Shown one piece after another: positions 2,950-13,693 of a stretch of 49,171 nucleotides of DNA (positions are counted from its first letter, which is position 1; each line of letters begins with the position of its first letter). The position numbers and the translations under genes were made by a program. The stretch comes from Ruminococcus callidus ATCC 27760 (GTDB lineage: Bacteria; Bacillota; Clostridia; Oscillospirales; Ruminococcaceae). The notes beneath the pieces are model-generated. The model saw only the letters and a list, made by a program, of their open reading frames with translations, was not told the origin of the DNA and searched no databases. The stretch spans positions 20,845 to 70,015 of the forward strand of contig NZ_KI260341.1 of the NCBI RefSeq assembly GCF_000468015.1. The letters run 5' to 3'.

Positions 2950-2991
2950 CACAAAAGAGCCGATGACACGCTTCCGCATCATCGGCTCTTT
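2950..2991 (-). terminator. Terminator of the fumarate reductase operon
   Basis: A 13-bp stem AAAGAGCCGATGA (2954-2966) pairs with 2979-2991. A T-rich minus-strand tail follows. It lies about 35 bp beyond the last gene of the operon. Confidence 0.85.
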
Positions 2992-3023
2992 CTATATGAT
3001 ATTGCTGTCTGTGACAGACGTTT

Positions 3024-4625
3024 TTAGTCGTTTACCTTGCGGGTATAATCCGGCAGCAGCTTCGGAGAAACTTCGTCCGGCTGGATACCAGCGTCAGCCA
3101 GTTCCTTTTCGAACTTTGCAACGTGATCCAGAGTCAGCTTGCCGACTTCAACAGTCTTTGCCTTTGCAGCAGCGTACTTACCAGCGTTACGGCCGAATAC
3201 GATAACGTCCAGCAGGGAGTTACCCATCAGTCTGTTTTCACCGTGTACACCACCAGCAGCTTCGCCGGCAACGAACAGGTTTTCTACGCAGGTCTGGCTG
3301 TCTGTGCCAACCTTGACACCACCGTTCTGGTAGTGCAGAGTCGGATAGATCAGCATCGGCTGCTTCCGAATGTCGATGCCATATTTCAGGAACATTCTCA
3401 GCATTGCCGGAATCCGCTTTTCGATCGTGCCTTCGCCGTGAATAATGTCGATCATCGGAGCGTCCAGCCATACACCCTGACCACCGGTCGGAGTGTCTAC
3501 CTGCTTGCCACGGCGGCATTCACGAATAACGGTAGATGCGGTAACGTCACGAGTTTCCAGCGGGTTCATGAAGACTTCGCCGTCTACGTTTACCAGCTTT
3601 GCACCCAGAGAACGAACCTTTTCGGTAACCAGTGCACCGAAGATCTGTTCCGGGAATGCAGCACCGGTCGGGTGATACTGCAGGGTGTACTGCTCACGCA
3701 GCGGAGCACCCACACGATAAGCCAGCACCAGACCGTCTGCGGTTGCACCGTAGTGGTTGGAAGTCGGGAATCCCTGATAGTGCATTCTGCCTGCACCGCC
3801 GGTAGCAATGATAACAACCTTTGCCTTGGCGATCAGGATCTCGCCGGTTTCCATGTTCATCAGAACGGCACCGGCACAGTGACCCTTGTCGTCCATGATC
3901 AGTTCGATTGCAGAAGTGAAATCCACTACCGGAATCTTACGGTTCAGCACTTCGTCACGCAGGGTACGCATGATCTCTGCACCGGAGTAGTCCTTCGCAG
4001 CGTGCATTCTCTTACGAGAAGTACCGCCGCCGTGGGTGGTGATCATGTTGCCTTCTGCGTCCTTATCGAACTCAACGCCCAGATCCTGCAGCCATTCAAT
4101 GCCCTCCGGAGCCTCGGTAACCAGCTTATAAACCAGTTCCTTGTCCGCAGCAAAGTGACCACCGCCGTAGCAGTCGAGGAAGTGCTGTGCCGGAGAATCG
4201 TTCGGCTTATCCGCAGCCTGAATGCCGCCTTCTGCCATCATGGTGTTTGCATCACCGATACGCAGCTTGGTTACGATCATAACCTTTTCGCCGGCATTGT
4301 CTGCTTCGATCGCAGCAGATGCACCAGCACCGCCGCCGCCGATGATGAGCACGTCGGTTTCATAATCCGGACAGGAAAGATCCGGCAGGTTGTCCTTCAG
4401 GCGGCTGTCAGACTGGAGCATTTTTACCAGTTCCTTCGGAGCCTTTTCGCCCTTGTTCGGACCAACAGTCAGCACGTCGAACTGATCTTCGCGATAGTCC
4501 GGGTGGTTTTCTTTCAGAACCTGATCCTTTTCCTCTGCGGTCATTCTTCTCGGTTCCATTGCAGCATTTTCTGCACGCTTTGCTTCTACCTTCTTAATGG
4601 ATTCCAGCATTTCTTCCGTATACAT
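3024..4625 (-). CDS. Fumarate reductase/succinate dehydrogenase-type flavoprotein, soluble
   Basis: A 533-residue flavoprotein of the FrdA/SdhA/TfrA/NadB superfamily, predicted to reduce fumarate to succinate in the cytoplasm. The FAD Rossmann motif GGGGAGASAA begins near residue 97, and the substrate-site elements are conserved: HPTG at 318, Arg338, His431 in LHYQNGG, and HGENRLMGNSLL with His461 and Arg465. Two oddities stand out. An 85-90 residue charged N-terminal extension precedes the Rossmann fold. The position of the covalent-FAD histidine of membrane Frd/Sdh is Asn127 (ANTMMAEGG), as in NadB-type enzymes, so FAD is probably non-covalent. RBS AAGGAGG lies at good spacing. It is the last gene of the operon. 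No membrane-anchor gene accompanies it. Confidence 0.9.
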   Translation of the reverse strand: MYTEEMLESIKKVEAKRAENAAMEPRRMTAEEKDQVLKENHPDYREDQFDVLTVGPNKGEKAPKELVKMLQSDSRLKDNLPDLSCPDYETDVLIIGGGGAGASAAIEADNAGEKVMIVTKLRIGDANTMMAEGGIQAADKPNDSPAQHFLDCYGGGHFAADKELVYKLVTEAPEGIEWLQDLGVEFDKDAEGNMITTHGGGTSRKRMHAAKDYSGAEIMRTLRDEVLNRKIPVVDFTSAIELIMDDKGHCAGAVLMNMETGEILIAKAKVVIIATGGAGRMHYQGFPTSNHYGATADGLVLAYRVGAPLREQYTLQYHPTGAAFPEQIFGALVTEKVRSLGAKLVNVDGEVFMNPLETRDVTASTVIRECRRGKQVDTPTGGQGVWLDAPMIDIIHGEGTIEKRIPAMLRMFLKYGIDIRKQPMLIYPTLHYQNGGVKVGTDSQTCVENLFVAGEAAGGVHGENRLMGNSLLDVIVFGRNAGKYAAAKAKTVEVGKLTLDHVAKFEKELADAGIQPDEVSPKLLPDYTRKVND

Positions 4626-4639
4626 GATACCGCACCTCC

Positions 4640-5314
4640 TTACTTTTCAATCTCACGATTGTTGTACTTTTCACGAATCTCCGCATCGCTCAGTGCCATA
4701 TTTGCACGGATTGCTTCTTCGCACTTGCCTTCTTCGATTTCCTTGACACGATCTGCCAGATGCTGACATTTCGGTTCAATGTACTTACCGTTCAGGCGGC
4801 GAGCCAGCATTGCAACCTGCGGGTGCGAGATACCAGCCGGACAGCGGGAAGAACATACGCCGCACATAACGCAGTCGAAAGATTCTTCTGCACACTTTGC
4901 ATATTCCGCACGCTGTGCATATGCGATATACTGCATAACGTTCAGACCCTGTGTACAAGCATTGGTACAAGCGTTACAGCCGATGCAGGAATAGATTTCC
5001 GGATAGTTCTTCATCATTACGGTTTCGTCCGGACGAACCTCGTTGATGTCATAGATCTCCTTGATCAGCGGGAAGAACGGCAGCTGTGTGATGTACATGC
5101 CTTCTACCACCTGTGTGGAGCATGCCAGACAGGTGTGCAGTTCTCTGTCACCCTTGATCCGGTAAATTGTTGCACAGGCACCGCAGAAACCATTTCGGCA
5201 GCCGCAGCCGCGAACCAGTTTATAGCCAGCGTATTCCAAAGCCTTCATGATGGTCAGACTGGCAGGAACCTCATACTTCTTGCCCATCACGAACACATTA
5301 ACCATCTGTTCCAT
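4640..5314 (-). CDS. Iron-sulfur subunit, [2Fe-2S] plus two [4Fe-4S], fumarate reductase type
   Basis: A 224-residue electron-transfer protein shaped like FrdB/SdhB. An N-terminal [2Fe-2S] ferredoxin fold has Cys37, 39, 44, 47 and 62; a C-terminal domain has CxxCxxCxxxC at 110-120 and 148-158. Both C-terminal motifs look like [4Fe-4S] sites, whereas respiratory FrdB has one [4Fe-4S] and one [3Fe-4S] there. Methanogen TfrB fuses this module to CCG (HdrB) domains; here the CCG protein is the separate hdrB gene of the same operon. It lies 14 bp upstream of the flavoprotein gene, and I infer that it delivers electrons to it. RBS GGAG at 7 bp. Confidence 0.85.
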   Translation of the reverse strand: MEQMVNVFVMGKKYEVPASLTIMKALEYAGYKLVRGCGCRNGFCGACATIYRIKGDRELHTCLACSTQVVEGMYITQLPFFPLIKEIYDINEVRPDETVMMKNYPEIYSCIGCNACTNACTQGLNVMQYIAYAQRAEYAKCAEESFDCVMCGVCSSRCPAGISHPQVAMLARRLNGKYIEPKCQHLADRVKEIEEGKCEEAIRANMALSDAEIREKYNNREIEK

Positions 5315-5332
5315 GTGAATTCTCCTTTACCA

Positions 5333-6193
5333 TTAATATTCGTTCGGCAGTTCGGACAGCTCATCAAAGCGGAATACCGGACCGTCCTTGCAGACGTACT
5401 TGTCACCGATATTGCAGCGTCCGCACTTGCCGATACCGCATTTCATACGCAGTTCCATTGTGGTATAGACCTGTTCTTCTTGGAAGCCCAGTTCTTTCAG
5501 ACCGTCCAGTGTGAACTTGATCATGATCGGAGGTCCGCAGATCAGAACAGTACGGTTCAGGTCCGGCTTCAGTTCCTTGACATAGTTCGGAATAAAGCCA
5601 ACGTGACCGTCCCAGCCCTCCTGTTCACGGTCGATGGTCAGATCCACCTTGCAGTCCTGACTCCATTCGTCCAGAATTTCCTGATAGTCTACCAGATCGT
5701 CCTTGGAACGGGAGCCGTAAATGATATGCAGAGAACCATAAGCGCCAGGATTCTCACGCTTTTTGTCACGGCAATAGTTGATGACGGAACGCAGCGGAGC
5801 CAGACCGATACCGCCGGCGATAAACAGCAGATCCTTTCCCTTCAGACCATAGTTGCCGTTTTCCGGTGTCGGAACGGTTTCCACCGGAAAGTTCTTTCCC
5901 AGCGGACCTCTGACGGTGACTTCCTGTCCAACGTCCATCATGTGCAGCCAGCTTGTCAGACAGCCGCACTTCTTGATCGAAAATTCCATGAATTCCTTGT
6001 TTGTCGGAGAAGATGTAATGGAGAACATACCTTCGCCAATGCCCGGAATGGAAACCATCGCACACTGACCGGGCATATGCTCGAACAGTTTGTTTCCGTC
6101 CAGACCGACCACGCGGAATGTCTTGACATCGGGAGTATCCTGACGAATGTCAGTTACCACGCCGACCTTCGGAATCAATGCTTCTTGTTTCAT
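5333..6193 (-). CDS. flxA: FlxA-like FAD/NAD(P)H-binding oxidoreductase subunit
   Basis: A 286-residue member of the ferredoxin-NADP reductase/dihydroorotate dehydrogenase PyrK/AsrB superfamily. It has an N-terminal FAD beta-barrel, a nucleotide-binding Rossmann domain with GGIGLAPLRS near residue 130, CGPP before the C-terminus, and a [2Fe-2S] site at Cys252, 257, 260 and 268. In the Flx-Hdr complexes known from Desulfovibrio this subunit oxidises NADH and feeds HdrA. Its ATG overlaps the previous gene's TGA (ATGA), which implies translational coupling. AsrB of sulfite reductase is the closest alternative, but no siroheme AsrC gene is present here. Confidence 0.85.
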   Translation of the reverse strand: MKQEALIPKVGVVTDIRQDTPDVKTFRVVGLDGNKLFEHMPGQCAMVSIPGIGEGMFSITSSPTNKEFMEFSIKKCGCLTSWLHMMDVGQEVTVRGPLGKNFPVETVPTPENGNYGLKGKDLLFIAGGIGLAPLRSVINYCRDKKRENPGAYGSLHIIYGSRSKDDLVDYQEILDEWSQDCKVDLTIDREQEGWDGHVGFIPNYVKELKPDLNRTVLICGPPIMIKFTLDGLKELGFQEEQVYTTMELRMKCGIGKCGRCNIGDKYVCKDGPVFRFDELSELPNEY

Positions 6194-7224
6194 GCGTTAC
6201 CCTCCCCTAAAGTCTTCATGACCTTTACAATGTTCATGGAAATCGGGCAGCTCTTCATGCAGCGACCGCAGCCAACGCAGCCAAATACGCCGTCGTTGTT
6301 TGCCGGATAGTAAACCAGCTTATGCATGAACCGCTGACGGAAACGCTCCAGCTGTGTGGGACGCGGCTGACCGCCGGCTGTCTTGGTAAAGTCAGCGTAC
6401 ATACAGCTGTCCCAGCAGCGGAACCGCTGTACGCCGTGACCGGTGTCATAGTCGCGAATGTCATAGCACTGACAGGTCGGGCACACGAAAGTACAGGTGC
6501 CGCAGCCCAGACATGCTTCTGACAGGCTTGCCCACTTATCGGAACTGAACAGTTCCATCAGCTTATCTCCGCCAAAGGAGTCGGTAGAGAGGTTCTTCAG
6601 CGGCAGCTTTTCCAGAATTGCCTTGGTCTTTGCCTTGGATTCTTCCGCAGCATCGTCTGCGGCATCTTCCAGCATCGGCAAAGAAGCCAGCAGAGCCTCA
6701 CCCTTTTCGGTGTTTGCCTGCATCAGCACTGCATCATCTGTCAGCCAGCAGCTGACATCGCCAGCCGGTTCTGCGGCATCGATACCGAATACCGAGCAGA
6801 AGCAGGTTTCACTGGGCTTGCTGCAGGACATGGTCATTACCACGCCGTGTTCCCGACGGTTCTGATAGTAGGTATCTACCGGTTCCGACAGATACACGCT
6901 GTCCAGGATCTTGAAGCTTGCCGCATCACAGGCACGCACGCCGAAGATCACAAAGTCCTCGCACTCAGTACGAATATCATCGACTTCGATCTTCTTGCCG
7001 TTGACCTTGAAGTTGACCATGTTTTCTACCTGCGGGAAGAAAAAGTCCTTGGCACTGCGGACAGTGTTGACTGCCTCTGCAGCATACTTTGCTTCCGGTG
7101 TCCAGACGCTGTACTTTACACCGCGTTTTTCATCGGTGCCGTCAGCAACCGGCAGATAGAGTTTCTTTGCTTCTGCGATGGCAGCGAACAAAGCGTCCAG
7201 ATTTTCTCGAGATACTTTTTTCAT
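6190..7224 (-). CDS. FlxB-like 4Fe-4S dicluster protein (AsrA family)
   Basis: A 344-residue iron-sulfur protein of the AsrA-like family (4Fe-4S dicluster, C-terminal half). CLGCGTCTFVCPTC and CVGCGRCMKSCP are the two cluster motifs, separated by a conserved RCWDSCMY segment. The N-terminal half has no cluster motif; it resembles the family's nucleotide/partner-binding part. The ATG at 7224 overlaps the upstream gene's TGA by one base (TGATG) and has AAAGGAGG at 9 bp; a GTG one codon earlier is the alternative start. By position it is a wiring subunit between FlxA and HdrA. FlxB versus FlxC naming is by order only. Confidence 0.8.
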   Translation of the reverse strand: MKKVSRENLDALFAAIAEAKKLYLPVADGTDEKRGVKYSVWTPEAKYAAEAVNTVRSAKDFFFPQVENMVNFKVNGKKIEVDDIRTECEDFVIFGVRACDAASFKILDSVYLSEPVDTYYQNRREHGVVMTMSCSKPSETCFCSVFGIDAAEPAGDVSCWLTDDAVLMQANTEKGEALLASLPMLEDAADDAAEESKAKTKAILEKLPLKNLSTDSFGGDKLMELFSSDKWASLSEACLGCGTCTFVCPTCQCYDIRDYDTGHGVQRFRCWDSCMYADFTKTAGGQPRPTQLERFRQRFMHKLVYYPANNDGVFGCVGCGRCMKSCPISMNIVKVMKTLGEGNA

Positions 7225-8198
7225 CACTTGCTGCCTCCTTTATAAACCACATTCGGCTCGCAGTCTTCCTTGGTGAAGTTCACCAGCGGTGCACGGCTGC
7301 CTTCCTCTGCACCAGCCTGATATTCACCATAATAAGTGTTAATATCCTTGATGAACTTCCGGTTCAGCAGGTGCAGCGGAATGTGCTGCGGACATACTCT
7401 GGAGCACTCACCGCAGTCGGTACAGCGACCTGCTACGTGGAATGCACGAATAATGTGGAACATATTTTCTTCGAAGGAGTCTGCTGCTGCCTTCTGGGAA
7501 ACACCAGATGCCGGATTGTCAAAGACGCACTGTTCGCAGCTGCATGCCGGACAGATGTTGCGGCAGGCGTTGCAGCGAATGCAGCGGGACAGTTCCCCAC
7601 GCCAGAATGCGAATCTTTCTTCCGGTGTCATAGCCTCCAGCTTTGCGACCATATCGAAACGACCGGACTCCGGATTTTCCTCACCGTTTTCGCCCAGCAT
7701 CTCATCGTAGACAACAACCTTGTGGCTCTTGCAGACTTCGCAGCGTTCCAGCAGGCAGTCCTTCTTGCTGACAGAAACTTCACCGTACATGGTTTCCGCC
7801 TTTACGGTGTCACCGTCAGTGGTGATGCCCAGAATGCCCTCGGCACCGGCTTCACGTACCTTATCCGGATCCAGCTTGCCGTCACAGGGAACGCCGATGA
7901 TGTAAACGTTTTCCCGCTTGATGCGGTGTTCTGTCAGCAGCTGGTTGAAGCTATAGGAATCACACGGCTTCAGGAAAACCAGTGTCTTGCCCTCCAGCTT
8001 AGACAGTTTGATCAGATACTTCGACAGATTGCTGCCGCAGAAATCGTGATATACAAAATCCTTTTCCAAAGCTTCTGCAGAATCGAACACAGCCGGTGTG
8101 GGATCATAGACAAACTCACCGTTTTTCCAGCCCAGCACACGAACAACTGTACCGTCTGCCAACAGCTCGGAGGCTCTTTTCATCATTTCGCTTTGCAT
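7224..8198 (-). CDS. FlxC-like 4Fe-4S dicluster protein
   Basis: A 324-residue iron-sulfur protein. An N-terminal region of about 200 residues carries KPCDSYSF and GVPCDGK motifs typical of FrhB/HdrA-associated electron-transfer proteins. Two C-terminal cluster motifs follow, CIRCNACRNICPACSC and CTDCGECSRVCPQH. RBS GGAGG lies 7 bp before the ATG at 8198. The start lies inside the end of the MvhD-like gene (16-nt overlap), and its stop overlaps the next start, so the four Flx genes are tightly coupled. The role is predicted electron relay inside the NADH-Hdr complex. No catalytic residues of its own are visible. Confidence 0.78.
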   Translation of the reverse strand: MQSEMMKRASELLADGTVVRVLGWKNGEFVYDPTPAVFDSAEALEKDFVYHDFCGSNLSKYLIKLSKLEGKTLVFLKPCDSYSFNQLLTEHRIKRENVYIIGVPCDGKLDPDKVREAGAEGILGITTDGDTVKAETMYGEVSVSKKDCLLERCEVCKSHKVVVYDEMLGENGEENPESGRFDMVAKLEAMTPEERFAFWRGELSRCIRCNACRNICPACSCEQCVFDNPASGVSQKAAADSFEENMFHIIRAFHVAGRCTDCGECSRVCPQHIPLHLLNRKFIKDINTYYGEYQAGAEEGSRAPLVNFTKEDCEPNVVYKGGSK

Positions 8199-8623
8199 CT
8201 CAGATCCTCCAGTCTTTTGTTCTCGCCCAGTGCAGTGACAGTTTCTACAAACTCATTCATGGTTGCAGCGAACTTTGCACCTTCTGCGGCGGATACCCAT
8301 TCTACACGGGTACGCTCTTTCTCGATACCCAGATAATCCAGCATCGAGAACAGCAGTGTCATTCTGCGGCGGGCATAGTAGTTACCAGTGGTATAGTGGC
8401 AGTCACCCGGGTGACAGCCGCAGAGGATCACGCCGTCTGCACCACGCTGGAATGCACGCAGAATAAAGAGTGGATTGACACGGCAGGAGCAAGGTACACG
8501 AATGATCTTGACATCTGCCGGATAGTTTGAACGGTTTGTACCCGCAAGGTCCGCACCTGCATAAGAACACCAGTTACAGCAGAATGCGACGATTTTCGGT
8601 TTAAATTCCTGATTTACTTGCAT
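8183..8623 (-). CDS. MvhD/FlxD-like hydrogenase iron-sulfur subunit
   Basis: A 146-147 residue protein of the MvhD family, usually about 140 aa, which docks an electron donor onto HdrA. Conserved cysteines are visible: CCNWCSYAGAD (15-19), CSCRVNP (45-47) and CGCHPGDCHY (68-75), ligands of a [2Fe-2S] cluster in MvhD. The start is ATG 8623 with GGAGG ten bases upstream, and it overlaps the 3' end of hdrA by 10 nt. The open frame extends 33 codons further up inside hdrA, but those residues have no family match and no RBS. It links the NADH-oxidising Flx subunits to HdrA. Confidence 0.87.
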   Translation of the reverse strand: MQVNQEFKPKIVAFCCNWCSYAGADLAGTNRSNYPADVKIIRVPCSCRVNPLFILRAFQRGADGVILCGCHPGDCHYTTGNYYARRRMTLLFSMLDYLGIEKERTRVEWVSAAEGAKFAATMNEFVETVTALGENKRLEDLRCKAK

Positions 8624-10614
8624 ATTGCATCTACCTCCGCCATAATCTGACCGGTTGCGAAGCCCTTCAGATCCATTGCACCGGACGGGCATGCAACGGT
8701 ACAAGCACCGCAGCCCTGACATACTGCCTCATTGACAACTGCTACGCGGCGAATCATCGAGCCGTCCTGACGGCGGCTGAAGTCCTTCTCCTCATAAGTA
8801 ATTGCACCGTACGGGCAGACATTTGCACAAGACGAGCAACCATTGCACTTCATGGGATCCGAATGGGATACGCACGGGTTGCAGGACAGCTTGTCCTTTG
8901 CCAGCAGACCGATAACCTTAGAAGCAGCGGCACCAGCCTGTGCAACGGTTTCCGGAATATCCTTCGGTCCCTGACAAACACCGGAAAGGAATACACCGGC
9001 TGTCGGGGATTCTACCGGACGCAGCTTTGCGTGAGCTTCTGTGAAGAAGTCGTTGGTATCCATGCTTGCAGTCAGCATGGTTGCCAGCGGACGGGCACTC
9101 TTGTCTGCTTCGATCGCAGCAGCCAGAACGACCATATCTGCCTTGATGTGCAGCTGTTCGTTGGAGATCAGATCAGAAGCCTGAACATCCAGTGTGCCGT
9201 CAGACTGCGGAGCAACCTTGCCGACCATACCCTTAATATAATGTACGCCATACTGTTCTACGGCACGGCGATAGAACTCATCATAGTTCTTGCCCGGTGT
9301 ACGAACGTCGATGTAGAATACATAGACATCGGTATCCGGATATTTTTCGCGGCACAGCATTGCGTGCTTTGCGGTATACATACAGCAGATCTTGGAGCAG
9401 TATTCCTTACCGCAGCCATGCTGAGAACCGGATTCACGGCTGCCGACGCACTGTACGAATACCAGTGTCTTCGGCTGCTTGCCGTCGGACAGACGCTGCA
9501 AATGACCTTCTGTCGGACCGTCTGCCTTCAGGATCCGCTCGAATTCCAGAGAAGTGACAACGTCCTTGCTCTGGGAATATGCGAATTCGTCATAGCCGTC
9601 AATGTTGATCGGATTGTAACCGGTAGCGGCAACGATTGCACCGTACTTTTCTTCTACGAAAGTTTCCTTCTGCTCGTAGTCGATCGCACCGGCAGAGCAA
9701 ACTGTCGAACACAGACCGCACTTGCCCTTGGTGAGCTTGATGCAGCGTGTGGAGTCCAGAACAGCAACGTTCGGGATTGCCTGTGCAAACGGGATATATG
9801 CAGCGTGACGGTTGCTCAGTCCCAGATTGTAAGCGTCCGGAATGTTCTTTACCGGACACTTTTCCGTACATGCACCGCAGCCGGTACACTTATCCTCATC
9901 GACAAAACGAGCCTTACGGCGAATCTTGACGCTGAAGTTGCCCACGAAACCGGTCACTGCTTCTACTTCACTGTAGGAGTAGATCGTGATCTTGTCGTTC
10001 TGTGCACATTCTACCATTTTCGGTGTCAGGATACAGGACGAGCAGTCCAGTGTCGGGAATGTCTTATCGATCTGTGTCATCTTACCGCCGATGGTCGGTT
10101 CCTTTTCGACGATGTCTACCGGATAGCCGGCTTCTGCAATATCCAGAGCAGTCTGGATACCTGCGATACCGCCGCCGATGACCAGAGCACGCTTGGTTAC
10201 CGGACTTTCGCCGGCGATCAGCGGGGTATTCAGCAGAACCTTTGCAATTGCTGCACGTCCGAGGACGATTGCCTTTGCGGTTGCCTCCGGAATATCCTTG
10301 TGGATCCACGAGCACTGTTCACGAATATTTGCGACTTCCAGCATGTAGGGGTTCAGGCCTGCTGCTGCAACAGTCTTACGGAAAGTTGCCTCATGCATAC
10401 GGGGCGAACATGAACATACAACAACGCCCTCCAGCTGATACTCCTTGATCGCATCTTTGATTATGTTTTGGCCTGCCTCTGAGCACATATAGGGATAGTC
10501 GGTCGCATAAACGACTGCCGGCTCTTTTCCAAGAGTTTCAGCAACAGTTTTTACGTCGACGGTCGCCGCAATGTTCGTACCGCAGTGGCATACAAAAACA
10601 CCTATTCTCCGCAT
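8614..10614 (-). CDS. hdrA: Heterodisulfide reductase subunit A (flavin-based bifurcating)
   Basis: A 666-residue HdrA. Domain order: an N-terminal domain with VCHCG (Cys9/Cys11), an FAD Rossmann motif VIGGGIAGIQTAL from residue 145, an inserted ferredoxin with CTGCGACTEKC at 243-253 and a second CGLCSTVC cluster, and C-terminal ferredoxin motifs at 590-600 and 632-642. HdrA carries the FAD that performs electron bifurcation in methanogen and bacterial Hdr complexes. It is full length with no broken motif. RBS GGAGG at 7 bp. It sits between hdrC and the MvhD-like gene. I infer that it splits electrons from NADH between ferredoxin (low potential) and the HdrBC/fumarate reductase side (high potential). 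Confidence 0.93.
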   Translation of the reverse strand: MRRIGVFVCHCGTNIAATVDVKTVAETLGKEPAVVYATDYPYMCSEAGQNIIKDAIKEYQLEGVVVCSCSPRMHEATFRKTVAAAGLNPYMLEVANIREQCSWIHKDIPEATAKAIVLGRAAIAKVLLNTPLIAGESPVTKRALVIGGGIAGIQTALDIAEAGYPVDIVEKEPTIGGKMTQIDKTFPTLDCSSCILTPKMVECAQNDKITIYSYSEVEAVTGFVGNFSVKIRRKARFVDEDKCTGCGACTEKCPVKNIPDAYNLGLSNRHAAYIPFAQAIPNVAVLDSTRCIKLTKGKCGLCSTVCSAGAIDYEQKETFVEEKYGAIVAATGYNPINIDGYDEFAYSQSKDVVTSLEFERILKADGPTEGHLQRLSDGKQPKTLVFVQCVGSRESGSQHGCGKEYCSKICCMYTAKHAMLCREKYPDTDVYVFYIDVRTPGKNYDEFYRRAVEQYGVHYIKGMVGKVAPQSDGTLDVQASDLISNEQLHIKADMVVLAAAIEADKSARPLATMLTASMDTNDFFTEAHAKLRPVESPTAGVFLSGVCQGPKDIPETVAQAGAAASKVIGLLAKDKLSCNPCVSHSDPMKCNGCSSCANVCPYGAITYEEKDFSRRQDGSMIRRVAVVNEAVCQGCGACTVACPSGAMDLKGFATGQIMAEVDAICK

Positions 10615-10626
10615 TTTTATGCCTCC

Positions 10627-11007
10627 TTATTTGCTGTATTTCCGGAATGCACTGACGATTGCCTGCTGCGGCAAATCGTCGTCCAGCATTTCGGGAATCT
10701 GCTCCGATTTCAGGTGATTCTGTCCCTGCTGACGGATTACCGCCAGTCTGACTGCTTCCACCAGTTTTGCCGGTTCCACGTCACGCGGGCAGCGTTCTAC
10801 GCAGGCAAAGCAGGACAGGCATGTATAAATGGACTTCGATGCCATCAGCTTTTCGATGTCACCTTTTTCCACCATATATACAAACTGATGCGGATGATAT
10901 TCCATTGCATCATAAGACGGACAGGTACCGCTGCACTTTCCGCAACGCATACACTTCAGCGGATTCACGCCGCTGGTCGTCAGAACGAGTTCTTTCAAAT
11001 CTGCCAT
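10627..11007 (-). CDS. hdrC: Heterodisulfide reductase subunit C, 4Fe-4S ferredoxin-like
   Basis: A 126-residue HdrC with two [4Fe-4S] motifs: Cys19, 22, 25, 29 and Cys63, 66, 69, 73, each followed by Pro. In Hdr complexes HdrC conducts electrons from HdrA to HdrB. AAGGAGG stands 7 bp before the ATG. The gene lies 12 bp after hdrB and 12 bp before hdrA. Confidence 0.9.
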   Translation of the reverse strand: MADLKELVLTTSGVNPLKCMRCGKCSGTCPSYDAMEYHPHQFVYMVEKGDIEKLMASKSIYTCLSCFACVERCPRDVEPAKLVEAVRLAVIRQQGQNHLKSEQIPEMLDDDLPQQAIVSAFRKYSK

Positions 11008-11019
11008 TTTCGTTCCTCC

Positions 11020-11802
11020 TTATTTCAGACCGAGTGCTTCCGCCAGCAGCTCGGTAAAGTATACGACCGGCAGATCCGAAACGCCGGAATTCTTCTGGAG
11101 GTTGTACAGACAAAGCGGACATGCGGTGATCACCATTTCTGCACCGTGGTCCTTGGCACTGGCCATCACCTTGTTGCTTCTGGACTCTGCCACAGACTTT
11201 TCGTCCAGTGTCAGATAGCCGCCGCAGCATTCGTTCCGCATCGGATACAGTACCGGTGTTGCACCAATTGCACGGATAAAGTCTTCCAGAATCTTCGGAT
11301 TCTCCGGATTATCCATCTGCATGGTCTTTCCCGGACGGAGCAGAAGACATCCGTAATATGCGGCGATCTTCTTGCCCTTCAGCGGATTTACCACTTTCTT
11401 TTTCAGTTCATCGAAGCCGACCTTGTCCCGCAGTACTTCCAGATAATGCAGAACTTCGGTTTCGCCCTGATACGGCTCTGCCAGCTTCAGATAATTGTTT
11501 GCTTTCAGAACAATGTTGTCATCGGTCTGCATATCATGGTTGACCTGCTTGATGACATTATGACAGGCAGAACAAAGGGTAACCAGAGGCTGTCCCAGTT
11601 CCTTTGCTTTTGCCAGTGCACGAATCGATGAGAGCTTGGTTGCGATCTCATTCTTCGCCATTGGATACACACCGCCGCAGCACTGCCAGTCCGGAAGTTC
11701 TTCCAGAGTAAAGCCCAGTGCTTCAGCAGAGATCCGAGCATAGTGATCGAGGTCTTTCGCCTTGGTCTTCAGTGTACAGCCCGGAAAATAACTGTATGTC
11801 AT
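11020..11802 (-). CDS. hdrB: Heterodisulfide reductase subunit B, CCG-domain protein
   Basis: A 260-residue HdrB with two complete CCG signatures. The first uses Cys9, 41/42, 77 and 80; the second uses Cys152, 192/193, 228 and 231. In characterised HdrB these hold two noncubane [4Fe-4S] clusters where heterodisulfide is reduced. A clostridium lacks CoM-S-S-CoB, so the natural acceptor must differ. The operon contains a fumarate-reductase pair without its own quinol anchor or CCG domain, so HdrB is a candidate electron bridge to it, analogous to the HdrB-like half of TfrB. An unknown disulfide is the main alternative. Confidence 0.88.
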   Translation of the reverse strand: MTYSYFPGCTLKTKAKDLDHYARISAEALGFTLEELPDWQCCGGVYPMAKNEIATKLSSIRALAKAKELGQPLVTLCSACHNVIKQVNHDMQTDDNIVLKANNYLKLAEPYQGETEVLHYLEVLRDKVGFDELKKKVVNPLKGKKIAAYYGCLLLRPGKTMQMDNPENPKILEDFIRAIGATPVLYPMRNECCGGYLTLDEKSVAESRSNKVMASAKDHGAEMVITACPLCLYNLQKNSGVSDLPVVYFTELLAEALGLK

Positions 11803-11851
11803 AGCAAAACTACCTTTCCTTCCTGTTTTTTTGCACCGAAGTGCAGACGGT

Positions 11852-13228
11852 TCACGCCATCTCCTCGGGATGGAATACTTCGTCGAACCGTTCAGCTGTC
11901 AGGAATCCCAGCTCTACGCAGGCTTCCTTCAGCGAGATGTTGTCATGGAACGCCTTCTTTGCAGTTTTTGCAGCATTCTCATAACCGATGTAGGGGTTCA
12001 GTGCGGTTACCAGCATCAGAGAATTGTGCAGGTTATGGTGCATCTTTTCGCGGTTTGCACAGATGCCCACTGCACAGTTCTTATTGAAGGAGACAATGGA
12101 CTCTGCCAGCAGACGTGCAGACTGCAGGAAGTTATACGCACAAACCGGCATAAATACGTTCAGCTCAAAGTTACCCTGAGAAGCTGCCATGCCGACTGCC
12201 ACGTCGTTGCCCATTACCTGAACAGCAACCATCGTTGCCTGTTCGCACTGTGTCGGATTGACCTTGCCCGGCATGATGGAAGAACCCGGTTCGTTTTCCG
12301 GAATGGTGATTTCACCCAGACCATCTCTCGGACCGCTTGCCAGCCAGCGAACGTCGTTGGCGATCTTCATCATATCCGCAGCCAGAGCCTTCAGGGCACC
12401 GTGTGCAAATACGATCTCATCCTTGCTGGTCAGTGCGTGGAATTTGTTGGAAGCGGTGACGAAGTCCTTGCCGGTCAGTTCAGAAACTGCCTTGGCAACT
12501 TCTACATCAAAGCCCTCCGGTGCATTCAGACCGGTACCAACTGCGGTGCCGCCCAGTGCCAGTGTCTTCAGGTACGGCAACGCAGAAACGAGCATCTCGC
12601 GATCACGCTCGAGAGAAGTACGCCAGCCGCTGATCTCCTGCGAGAACTGGATCGGTGTTGCATCCTGCAGGTGGGTTCTGCCGCTTTTTACAATGCCCTT
12701 GTGTTCTTCTTCCAGACGGCGGAAGGTAGCCACCAATTCGTCAATTGCCGGCAGTACCTTATCCTCTACAGCCAGAACAGCAGAGATATGCATTGCAGTG
12801 GGGAATGTGTCGTTAGAAGACTGACTCATATTGACATCGTCATTCGGGTGCAGGATCTTCTTTCCGGCAACTTCATTACCGCGGTTTGCGATAACTTCGT
12901 TGGCGTTCATGTTGGACTGTGTGCCGCTGCCCGTCTGCCATACAACCAGCGGAAAATGCTCGTTCAGGCTGCCGGAGATCACTTCGTCACAGGCAGTGGA
13001 GATTGCAGAAAGCTTCTCCTCTGTCATACGCTCCGGACGGAGCTTGTGGTTTGCCATAGCGGCAGCCTTTTTCAGGATACCGAAAGCGTGTGTGATCTCG
13101 CGGGGCATGGTTTCAATGCCCACACCGATCAGAAAGTTCTCGTGGCTGCGTTCTGTCTGTGCTGCCCAGTACTTATCGGCGGGCACCTTTACTTCGCCCA
13201 TCGAATCGTGTTCAATGCGATACTCCAT
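11852..13228 (-). CDS. fumC: Class II fumarate hydratase
   Basis: A 458-residue class II fumarase interconverting malate and fumarate in the cytoplasm. The family signature GSSIMPGKVNPTQ lies near residue 315, with TGSGTQSNMNANEV and SGRTHLQDATP as the other active-site blocks. The preferred start is ATG 13228, where GGAG is 8 bp away; an ATG two codons upstream is only 2 bp from it. It is the first gene of the operon, 49 bp before hdrB, so fumarate supply and use are co-transcribed. Aspartase is a relative, but the sequence reads as fumarase, and context agrees. Confidence 0.92.
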   Translation of the reverse strand: MEYRIEHDSMGEVKVPADKYWAAQTERSHENFLIGVGIETMPREITHAFGILKKAAAMANHKLRPERMTEEKLSAISTACDEVISGSLNEHFPLVVWQTGSGTQSNMNANEVIANRGNEVAGKKILHPNDDVNMSQSSNDTFPTAMHISAVLAVEDKVLPAIDELVATFRRLEEEHKGIVKSGRTHLQDATPIQFSQEISGWRTSLERDREMLVSALPYLKTLALGGTAVGTGLNAPEGFDVEVAKAVSELTGKDFVTASNKFHALTSKDEIVFAHGALKALAADMMKIANDVRWLASGPRDGLGEITIPENEPGSSIMPGKVNPTQCEQATMVAVQVMGNDVAVGMAASQGNFELNVFMPVCAYNFLQSARLLAESIVSFNKNCAVGICANREKMHHNLHNSLMLVTALNPYIGYENAAKTAKKAFHDNISLKEACVELGFLTAERFDEVFHPEEMA

Positions 13229-13658
13229 GTTCATCTCTCCTATTTTGAAATTTTGATGATGGTGATTGTGTCTGTTTCTGCTGTGCGGCAGAAACGCTTT
13301 TGTGTCCGGTAAAAAGACTGTCCTGCCCTCGGCTGCAGTCCGTCAGTTCGGGCTGCTTGTCCGCAGTCTTTCTGCGGTTCCACAGCCGGATCCCCGTGCC
13401 GATGCAATGCACCCTTTCACGGAAACATACTTTTATGACAGAACAGCCTTTCTTCGCTGTCGGAACCGCTGAAAGCGGCTCCTGATCCCGTCCTGTCCGA
13501 ACGTCATTTTCACGGCGGCACGGCACAAAAAAATCTGCTGTACAACACGGCACAGCACCGCCATAGTGAAACTGTCTGTGACAGTTCCCGACAGAAAAAT
13601 CAAGAATTCTCCCCGAAAGCCGTCGCTTTTCCAGAGAAAAACTACATGATGTACTATC
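13229..13658 (-). promoter_or_regulatory. Long structured 5' leader of the fumC-hdr-flx-frd operon
   Basis: About 430 nt of untranslated RNA between promoter and fumC. Stable hairpins are visible: AACTGTC/GACAGTT (13570-13586), GGAGCCGCT/AGCGGTTCC (around 13463-13483) and GTTTCTGC/GCAGAAAC (13273-13294). I do not recognise a known riboswitch or T-box signature. The length and structure suggest RNA-level control, but the function is unknown. Confidence 0.5.
13527..13557 (-). terminator. Candidate attenuator inside the fumC leader
   Basis: On the minus strand TGCTGTGC, a 6-nt loop and GTACAGCA (one G-U pair) are followed by GA and seven T. It lies about 100 nt after the predicted start of transcription and about 300 nt before fumC. 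That suits premature termination better than end-of-operon termination. Confidence 0.45.
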
Positions 13659-13664
13659 TATGAT

Positions 13665-13693
13665 ATTATAACATATTCCGCCTGATTTTTCAA
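13665..13693 (-). promoter_or_regulatory. Sigma-A promoter P1 of the fumC-frdA operon
   Basis: TTGAAA (13688-13693), a 17-bp spacer and TATAAT (13665-13670), reading leftward. Confidence 0.75.

Follow-up and report, generated by a model that had tools for sequence, protein, structure and literature searches.

A conserved ten-gene operon of Ruminococcus callidus predicted to encode a cytosolic, electron-bifurcating NADH:fumarate reductase

Anaerobes that form succinate without quinones need a way to conserve the energy of fumarate reduction, and the locus described here raises the question of whether a single operon could provide one. It lies in a stretch of 49,171 nucleotides (the window) from the draft genome of Ruminococcus callidus ATCC 27760 (3.1 Mb, 97.8% complete; operon region on contig C57), where ten minus-strand open reading frames (ORFs), running from position 13228 to 3024, form the series fumC-hdrB-hdrC-hdrA-mvhD(flxD)-flxC-flxB-flxA-frdB-frdA. 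An earlier reading of the letters alone (the original prediction) had proposed these ten genes in this order, and the ORFs and family matches bear it out. Judging from sequence, the operon probably encodes a cytosolic, quinone-free NADH:fumarate and ferredoxin oxidoreductase that works by electron bifurcation. FlxA would oxidize NADH, and FlxB, FlxC and MvhD would relay the electrons to the FAD that HdrA carries. HdrA would split each pair: one electron would go to ferredoxin, and the other would travel along HdrC, HdrB and FrdB to the FAD of FrdA, the site of fumarate reduction to succinate. FumC would provide the fumarate, so that overall 2 NADH + fumarate + oxidized ferredoxin would yield succinate + reduced ferredoxin, and Rnf could convert the latter into an ion gradient.

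The genes, the cofactor cysteines, the fumarate-site residues and the conservation of the operon can be read directly. Named genome contigs were scanned with FrdA, and the closest 80 of 587 confirmed relatives were kept as a locus set. All 80 keep the gene order, more than expected by chance, which answers the search among relatives that had been called for; 56 have all ten genes, in 19 the operon is cut short where the contig stops, and five (L026, L041, L053, L062 and L065) begin at hdrB with no fumC directly before it. The nearest FrdA relatives with a name are labelled uncultured Ruminococcus (88-89% identity), and the carriers with named strains include Eubacterium coprostanoligenes ATCC 51222 (L057) and Ilyobacter polytropus DSM 2926 (L130). 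The operon is also present in metagenome bins labelled Spirochaetaceae (L051) and Bacteroidaceae (L079), taxon labels that may be wrong; their FrdA shares 73-75% identity with that of the window.

Of the genomes sampled, 38 of 197 in the order (with FrdA split into two pieces in G103 and G134) and 54 of 391 in the class have an FrdA of this family; identity then drops to 30-41% for the next matches in the order, of which G000:C5 was examined and proved NadB-like. An HdrA clade delimited at 54% identity or more likewise comprises 38 and 54 genomes, with hits in G096 (order, 48%) and in G218 (46%), G232 and G260 (42-43%, partial) in the class left out before counting. In the order, 37 genomes have both proteins, one has FrdA only, one HdrA only and 158 neither (Fisher p 9e-38); the corresponding numbers for the class are 53, 1, 1 and 336 (Fisher p 2e-63), these p values not being literal because the sampled genomes are related. 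Both genes share a contig in 36 of the 37 and 47 of the 53 genomes, respectively. One-sided cases are explained by contig ends in G142, G228 and G266, and the one in G179 is real.

Subunits, substrate and predicted electron path

The flavoprotein FrdA (frdA, 3024..4625; this and all features of the operon given below lie on the minus strand) matches PF00890, and the top fold match of its structural model (pLDDT 82, pTM 0.86 for the whole, with low confidence around residues 127-135) is E. coli FrdA (1kf6_A, TM 0.67). It has an N-terminal extension of ~88 residues that is predicted to be ordered (block pLDDT 85-97) and, in the alignment, no counterpart of the C-terminal part of E. coli FrdA. 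Against TIGR01812 it scores 293.9 bits, below the cut-off of 567.3, and its best-scoring family is TfrA (350.4 bits), whose cut-off of 718 is also missed. The substrate-site residues of fumarate reductase and succinate dehydrogenase flavoproteins, whose roles we take to be those generally described, are present: aligned with E. coli FrdA, H318, E335, R338, R359, H431 and R465 are found in 137 of 137 rows, not all of them independent, and T334 in 134. Together with the varying fumarate-forming neighbours described below, these residues support fumarate as the substrate. That FrdA instead acts on another unsaturated acid seems highly improbable; the idea draws on His198-Gly199, a place taken by Arg-Phe in E. 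coli FrdA and by Arg-Glu in NadB, and on L175, among the most distant homologues, which adjoins an MmgE/PrpD gene, but it sits poorly with six invariant key residues out of seven, with the near-invariance of the seventh (T334), and with a class II fumarase, aspartase or class I fumarase beside frdBA across lineages. In L174-L176, Phe replaces His at the residue aligned to FrdA 198. L-aspartate oxidase was considered as an identity for FrdA and rejected (281.7 bits against the NadB cut-off of 452.75; Gly199 in place of a Glu that is presumably part of the NadB active site). The gene is frameshifted near residue 310 in L135 (~10870) and L136 (~10570), at nearby, not identical, positions; error, decay or some other cause is possible.

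Asn127 takes the position of the covalent-FAD His in 136 of 137 rows, L068 being the one with His, and Asn also stands there in all 20 rows from beyond the class. In E. coli FrdA, loss of this His abolishes succinate oxidation and leaves fumarate reduction, so the Asn argues for fumarate reduction over succinate oxidation. Bifurcating enzymes are, as a matter of general knowledge, reversible in principle, and the operon could by the same token serve to oxidize succinate at the expense of reduced ferredoxin (confurcation), making NADH; the Asn, and neighbours that form fumarate or malate or resemble transporters, make this reverse operation very unlikely. Asn127 and the lack of an anchor gene among the ten genes also set the system apart from quinol:fumarate reductase (FrdABCD). 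A quinone-linked enzyme was rejected, the operon having no anchor gene and the window genome lacking two menaquinone markers, which fits the earlier claim that neither membrane nor quinone is needed. MenD had no match over the cut-off in 18 genomes (17 with the operon, and G179), 14 of which hold sub-cut-off hits; PF02621 had no match in the window genome and exceeded its low cut-off in five of the 18 (G024, G178, G179, G304 and G455). RnfC is over its cut-off in the window genome and in 16 of the 18 overall. The potential of ferredoxin is -420 to -500 mV. According to excerpts of PMC5861303, fumarate has a midpoint of +33 mV and NADH one of -320 mV. By arithmetic from midpoints, bifurcation from NADH to fumarate and ferredoxin is exergonic by roughly -49 to -33 kJ per mol, favourable as had been claimed.

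FrdB (frdB, 4640..5314; 224 amino acids) was assigned from its conserved cysteines and from per-domain fold matches. The cysteines of a [2Fe-2S]-type domain (C39, C44, C47 and C65) and of two [4Fe-4S] motifs (C110-120 and C148-158) are present in 131-132 of 132 rows, and likewise in all 19 rows taken from beyond the class. In its model (pLDDT 80, pTM 0.62), one domain resembles the [2Fe-2S] domains of complex I and hydrogenases and the other a dicluster domain of HdrC or RnfC, the latter aligning with HdrC 8rvu over 87 residues (Z 11.2, rmsd 2.4), with CODH close at 10.4. SdhB is not among the fold matches shown for this model, which excludes nothing. Since HdrC is a partner of HdrB, the HdrC-like domain is a hint from modelling, and no proof, that FrdB may dock on HdrB. 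The CCG domains lie in HdrB and none in FrdB, in agreement with the prediction of a separate CCG protein.

HdrB (hdrB, 11020..11802) matches PF02754 and known HdrB structures, and the ten cysteines of its two CCG domains (C9, C41, C42, C77, C80, C152, C192, C193, C228 and C231) are kept in each of 72 rows and in all 7 rows from outside the class. Its best NCBIfam match is SdhE of 8-methylmenaquinol:fumarate reductase (145.3 bits, cut-off 500), with the CoB-CoM HdrB model just behind, both far under cut-off. HdrC (hdrC, 10627..11007) has two four-cysteine [4Fe-4S] motifs, all eight cysteines being kept in 70 of 70 rows, and scores best with TIGR03290 (66.0 bits, cut-off 160). The putative bifurcating subunit HdrA (hdrA, 8614..10614) is full length and aligns along ~660 residues with the HdrA structure of the hydrogenase-Hdr complex from methanogens (5odc_A, E=1.4e-197 across residues 3-663). 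The match takes in the cysteine-rich site close to the bifurcating FAD and the lysine next to it, whose function we take to be the same here; 28 of its 35 cysteines are invariant in 71 of 71 rows. MvhD/FlxD (8183..8623) scores 187.8 bits with PF02662. FlxC (7224..8198) is an iron-sulfur protein recognized by 4Fe-4S dicluster matches, a sub-cut-off match to FrhB_FdhB_C and its place in the operon; FlxB (6190..7224, with an alternative start at GTG 7227) by Fer4_22 and sub-cut-off matches of the sulfhydrogenase beta/AsrA-like kind; and FlxA (5333..6193), the FAD/NAD(P)H-binding subunit, by PF00175, PF10418 and PF00970. The seven subunit genes of a FlxABCD-HdrABC system are thus found together, with the HdrB and HdrC cysteine motifs and a full-length HdrA. 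A simpler NADH:fumarate reductase, in which both electrons reach fumarate and ferredoxin is not reduced, would leave little other reason for a full-length HdrA that matches bifurcating structures and has so many invariant cysteines; it gains something from the pairing of FrdBA with a lone NuoF-type subunit elsewhere, by which NADH might feed FrdBA without HdrA, and on balance we hold it to be quite unlikely.

The first gene, fumC (11852..13228), encodes a class II fumarate hydratase (TIGR00979, 700.9 bits, cut-off 664.75). Its proposed role as supplier of the substrate fits the wider sample, in which fumarate-forming neighbours recur across lineages: the enzyme encoded nearby may be class II fumarase, aspartase (a relative of class II fumarase), class I fumarase (unrelated to it) or malate dehydrogenase. 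The Ilyobacter aspartase (L130) scores 681.5 bits, above the subfamily cut-off of 510 and below the aspA equivalog cut-off, and L166 has an aspartase-like lyase 55% identical to it. Class I fumarase, with a DASS transporter, lies downstream in L137; outside the class, six of the 20 loci read (L159, L162, L165, L169, L171 and L177) have both of its subunits, and L164 and L167 have a single one. The hydratase of L138 was examined as a fumarase; it scores as tartrate dehydratase and was not counted. A malate dehydrogenase gene lies upstream of fumC in 27 of the 48 loci whose DNA reaches far enough; in L062, L065 and L144 it stands immediately before hdrB. Three tested copies of this dehydrogenase are named L-lactate dehydrogenase by NCBIfam, over its cut-off; we call it malate dehydrogenase because the specificity residue is Arg, presumably the malate type by the motif we used, in 30 of 30 readable copies among 31 (26 by pattern, four by eye, one truncated). 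Downstream, within 400 nt of frdA, a permease gene is present in 44 of 69 loci, 43 times on the same strand, its assignment to the AspT family coming from one member. The AspT family includes succinate exporters, and the window genome has a homologue (56%) on another contig.

FrdBA with other partners

In a sample of the phylum, FrdA was found in 39 of 398 genomes, 38 of them outside the class (50-61% identity), and 20 loci from 19 of these genomes, chosen among 40 places, were read; in L165, L167 and L174 this covered less than 3.3 kb upstream of frdBA. The partners vary. L172 has a full Flx-Hdr set with FrdBA; L161 and L164 have HdrABC, an extra HdrA and an MvhD part, in a stretch that shows no match to FlxA or FlxB; and in L166 and L168 the cluster runs off the end of the stretch. 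Compact hdrC-hdrB-frdB-frdA clusters (L170, 4296-7925; L171, 4331-7991), with no HdrA within the stretch, tie HdrB to FrdB. L171 also has a class I fumarase and a TRAP transporter gene beside this cluster, and L163 has a pyruvate carboxylase. In L176, a protein with 4Fe-4S and cytochrome b561 domains (3227-4213) follows frdA directly, and a protein with a similar start occurs in L175. Among Pseudomonadota replicons of a plasmid collection, frdB-frdA is followed by a NuoF-type subunit (L131, 7351-10923; L132, 7257-10829; L133, 7264-10867), the hosts being Cupriavidus, where DctA adjoins (L131), Paraburkholderia and Pseudoroseomonas; this combination is possibly a soluble NADH-linked C4-dicarboxylate enzyme. 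Inside the class, L138 has frdB-frdA placed ahead of hdrB.

FrdBA thus looks like a movable unit. We see about even chances that it is a portable cytosolic fumarate-reducing cassette that runs on varied electron sources, among which Flx-HdrABC, HdrABC with MvhD and no FlxAB nearby, HdrCB alone, NuoF and an iron-sulfur cytochrome b are candidates. Its parts would be an FrdA that is extended at its N-terminus and lacks covalent FAD, and an FrdB that combines a [2Fe-2S] domain of the complex-I/hydrogenase type with an HdrC-like dicluster; in the window, FrdB would dock on HdrB, whose disulfide-cleaving clusters would serve as a wire.

The same survey supplies part of what weighs against a dedicated bifurcating complex. 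HdrB was seen beside FrdBA in at least seven of the 20 loci outside the class (some stretches end close by), and relatives of FrdBA stand beside NuoF, cytochrome b or no obvious partner, so that FrdBA would not need Flx-Hdr in principle. G179, a genome of 1.2 Mb, has frdBA in a 14-kb stretch that contains neither hdr nor flx genes, and neither an HdrA at the search threshold nor FlpD/MvhD was found in the genome. FrdB scores 31.9 bits against the SdhB model TIGR00384 (cut-off 88) and 31.7 against the TfrB model (cut-off 385), so that its description as SdhB-like holds only loosely. HdrB, with all ten cysteines, could still reduce a disulfide, and for Pseudoclostridium thermosuccinogenes, which has a similar operon (see below), the effects of H2 and Na2S on succinate cited in the excerpts of PMC7282089 conflict. 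The Flx-Hdr and FrdAB proteins might be two co-expressed enzymes linked by a soluble thiol, Flx-Hdr reducing a disulfide at HdrB and the dithiol then reducing fumarate via FrdAB, after the model of the thiol:fumarate reductase of methanogens. The intact CCG cysteines, and the excerpted statement in PMC7282089 that Flx-Hdr electrons go to ferredoxin 'and thiols', speak for this; yet FrdB has no CCG domain, which would leave FrdAB alone without a known thiol-oxidizing site and oblige the thiol to return to HdrB, and FrdBA and Hdr genes go together in the samples of the order and the class, although less consistently beyond the class. Such a thiol link is, in our view, unlikely. The bifurcating NADH:fumarate reductase of the original prediction stands on the linkage of its genes, the cysteines, the substrate site, the neighbours and the missing menaquinone markers; we infer complex formation, direction, bifurcation and a transfer from HdrB that ends at FrdB and not at a free disulfide. 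FrdBA also occurs where Hdr does not, in G179 and in most of the loci read outside the class.

In G179, frdBA (L134, 3025-5660) adjoins the gene of a small membrane protein of 108 amino acids with no Pfam match, which apparently resembles a protein encoded downstream of frdA in L039.

Operon boundaries and putative control

The fumC start at 13228 is reasonable, its ATG sitting 8 nt from an AGGAG, whereas the first ATG of the ORF, 13234, is only 2 nt away; the mvhD start was corrected to 8623. Of the nine junctions, described earlier as mostly overlapping, four overlap (by 1-16 nt) and the other five are gaps of 12-49 nt. Downstream of frdA, the expected terminator was borne out as a prediction by hairpin folding (2950..2992; -29.8 kcal/mol, z -7.7), the hairpin being followed by U-rich sequence; it was absent from the list of a simple scan. 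The next gene encodes a P-type cation ATPase and has its own perfect consensus promoter at 2932-2904.

At the other end, a candidate promoter (TTGAAA-N17-TATAAT, with TG before the second hexamer; 13665..13693, ~440 nt upstream of fumC) is only a consensus match and as such weak evidence for the promoter region of the original prediction; the scan that found it returned 20 promoter-like sites, where 11.3 were expected by chance from shuffles of the same region. The leader between this promoter and fumC (13240-13660, roughly 430 nt) contains a terminator-like hairpin (13557-13536), which makes attenuation possible. An Rfam scan of the whole window, leader included, matched no RNA element at gathering thresholds.

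Control by Rex is no more than suggested, by a few loci. Rex-like sites lie upstream of fumC in two of 50 loci (0.65 expected), and none lies in the window. The two, in L055 and L057, are inverted repeats (TTGTTATTTTTTTAACAA) 93-95 nt upstream of fumC that fit what we take to be the Rex-type motif. Genes resembling rex occur near the operon in 11 of 80 loci, one of them confirmed by family models.

Comparison with known systems

Koendjbiharie and van Kranenburg reportedly described a 'succinate operon' of P. thermosuccinogenes in a preprint of 2019. According to the excerpts of PMC7282089, this operon consists of a gene for fumarate hydratase, seven for Flx-Hdr, two for fumarate reductase and one for a hypothetical protein that is a possible succinate transporter, and the fumarate reductase is assumed to be coupled to ferredoxin reduction via Flx-Hdr. 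By that description it has the same blocks as the operon in the window, in the same order by locus tag (CDQ83_RS03320-03365), and the same bifurcation proposal; it differs in what follows frdA, which in the window is a cation ATPase with its own promoter and no transporter. Under CO2 limitation the operon was up ~4-fold and Rnf down ~2-fold, neither significantly for all subunits (PMC7282089). The original prediction had taken the combination as not known, and this no longer holds given the same gene content and coupling idea in that paper of 2020; our searches of open-access literature yielded no purified enzyme or published assay of the 2019-2020 proposal. The idea of a bifurcating operon has thus already been put forward, and what is new here is the breadth of its distribution, the swapping of FrdBA partners outside the class, the variants and the testable predictions. 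If the reading is right, a common, uncharacterized enzyme couples succinate formation to ferredoxin, and hence to Rnf or hydrogen, and the natural variants (HdrCB-FrdBA, FrdBA-NuoF and FrdBA alone) and the named carrier strains make it directly testable.

A close arrangement from a different phylum is that of plasmid pILYOP01 of I. polytropus (Fusobacteriota; ILYOP_RS13115-13070), which has the same nine hdr-flx-frd genes in the same order, with FrdA 64% identical, and aspartase in place of fumarase. The FlxABCD-HdrABC of Desulfovibrio vulgaris, reportedly an NADH dehydrogenase/heterodisulfide reductase linked to ethanol metabolism (Ramos et al. 2015), shares Flx and HdrABC with the operon in the window, and we know of no FrdAB there; Meyer et al. 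(2014) are said to have linked fumarate reduction with Hdr-Flox in Desulfovibrio. Methanogen TfrAB provides the best match of FrdA, namely TfrA, and differs in that the TfrB model includes a CCG part, matched by HdrB in its C-terminal half, whereas in the window CCG is separate in HdrB. In E-type SdhABE, as in Wolinella, the B subunit has a second [4Fe-4S] cluster in place of [3Fe-4S] and a ten-cysteine partner (excerpts of PMC2680327). This arrangement, shared with 8-methylmenaquinol:fumarate reductase, is that of FrdB and HdrB in the window; unlike the predicted enzyme, the E-type is membrane and quinol linked, and HdrB stays far under the SdhE cut-off. Finally, a tubeworm-symbiont cluster of the reductive tricarboxylic acid cycle, in which flxABCD-hdrABC is interspersed with tfrAB and korABCD and a complex has been suggested (excerpts of PMC6315080), differs by description in its TfrAB homologues, its autotrophic context and its korABCD.

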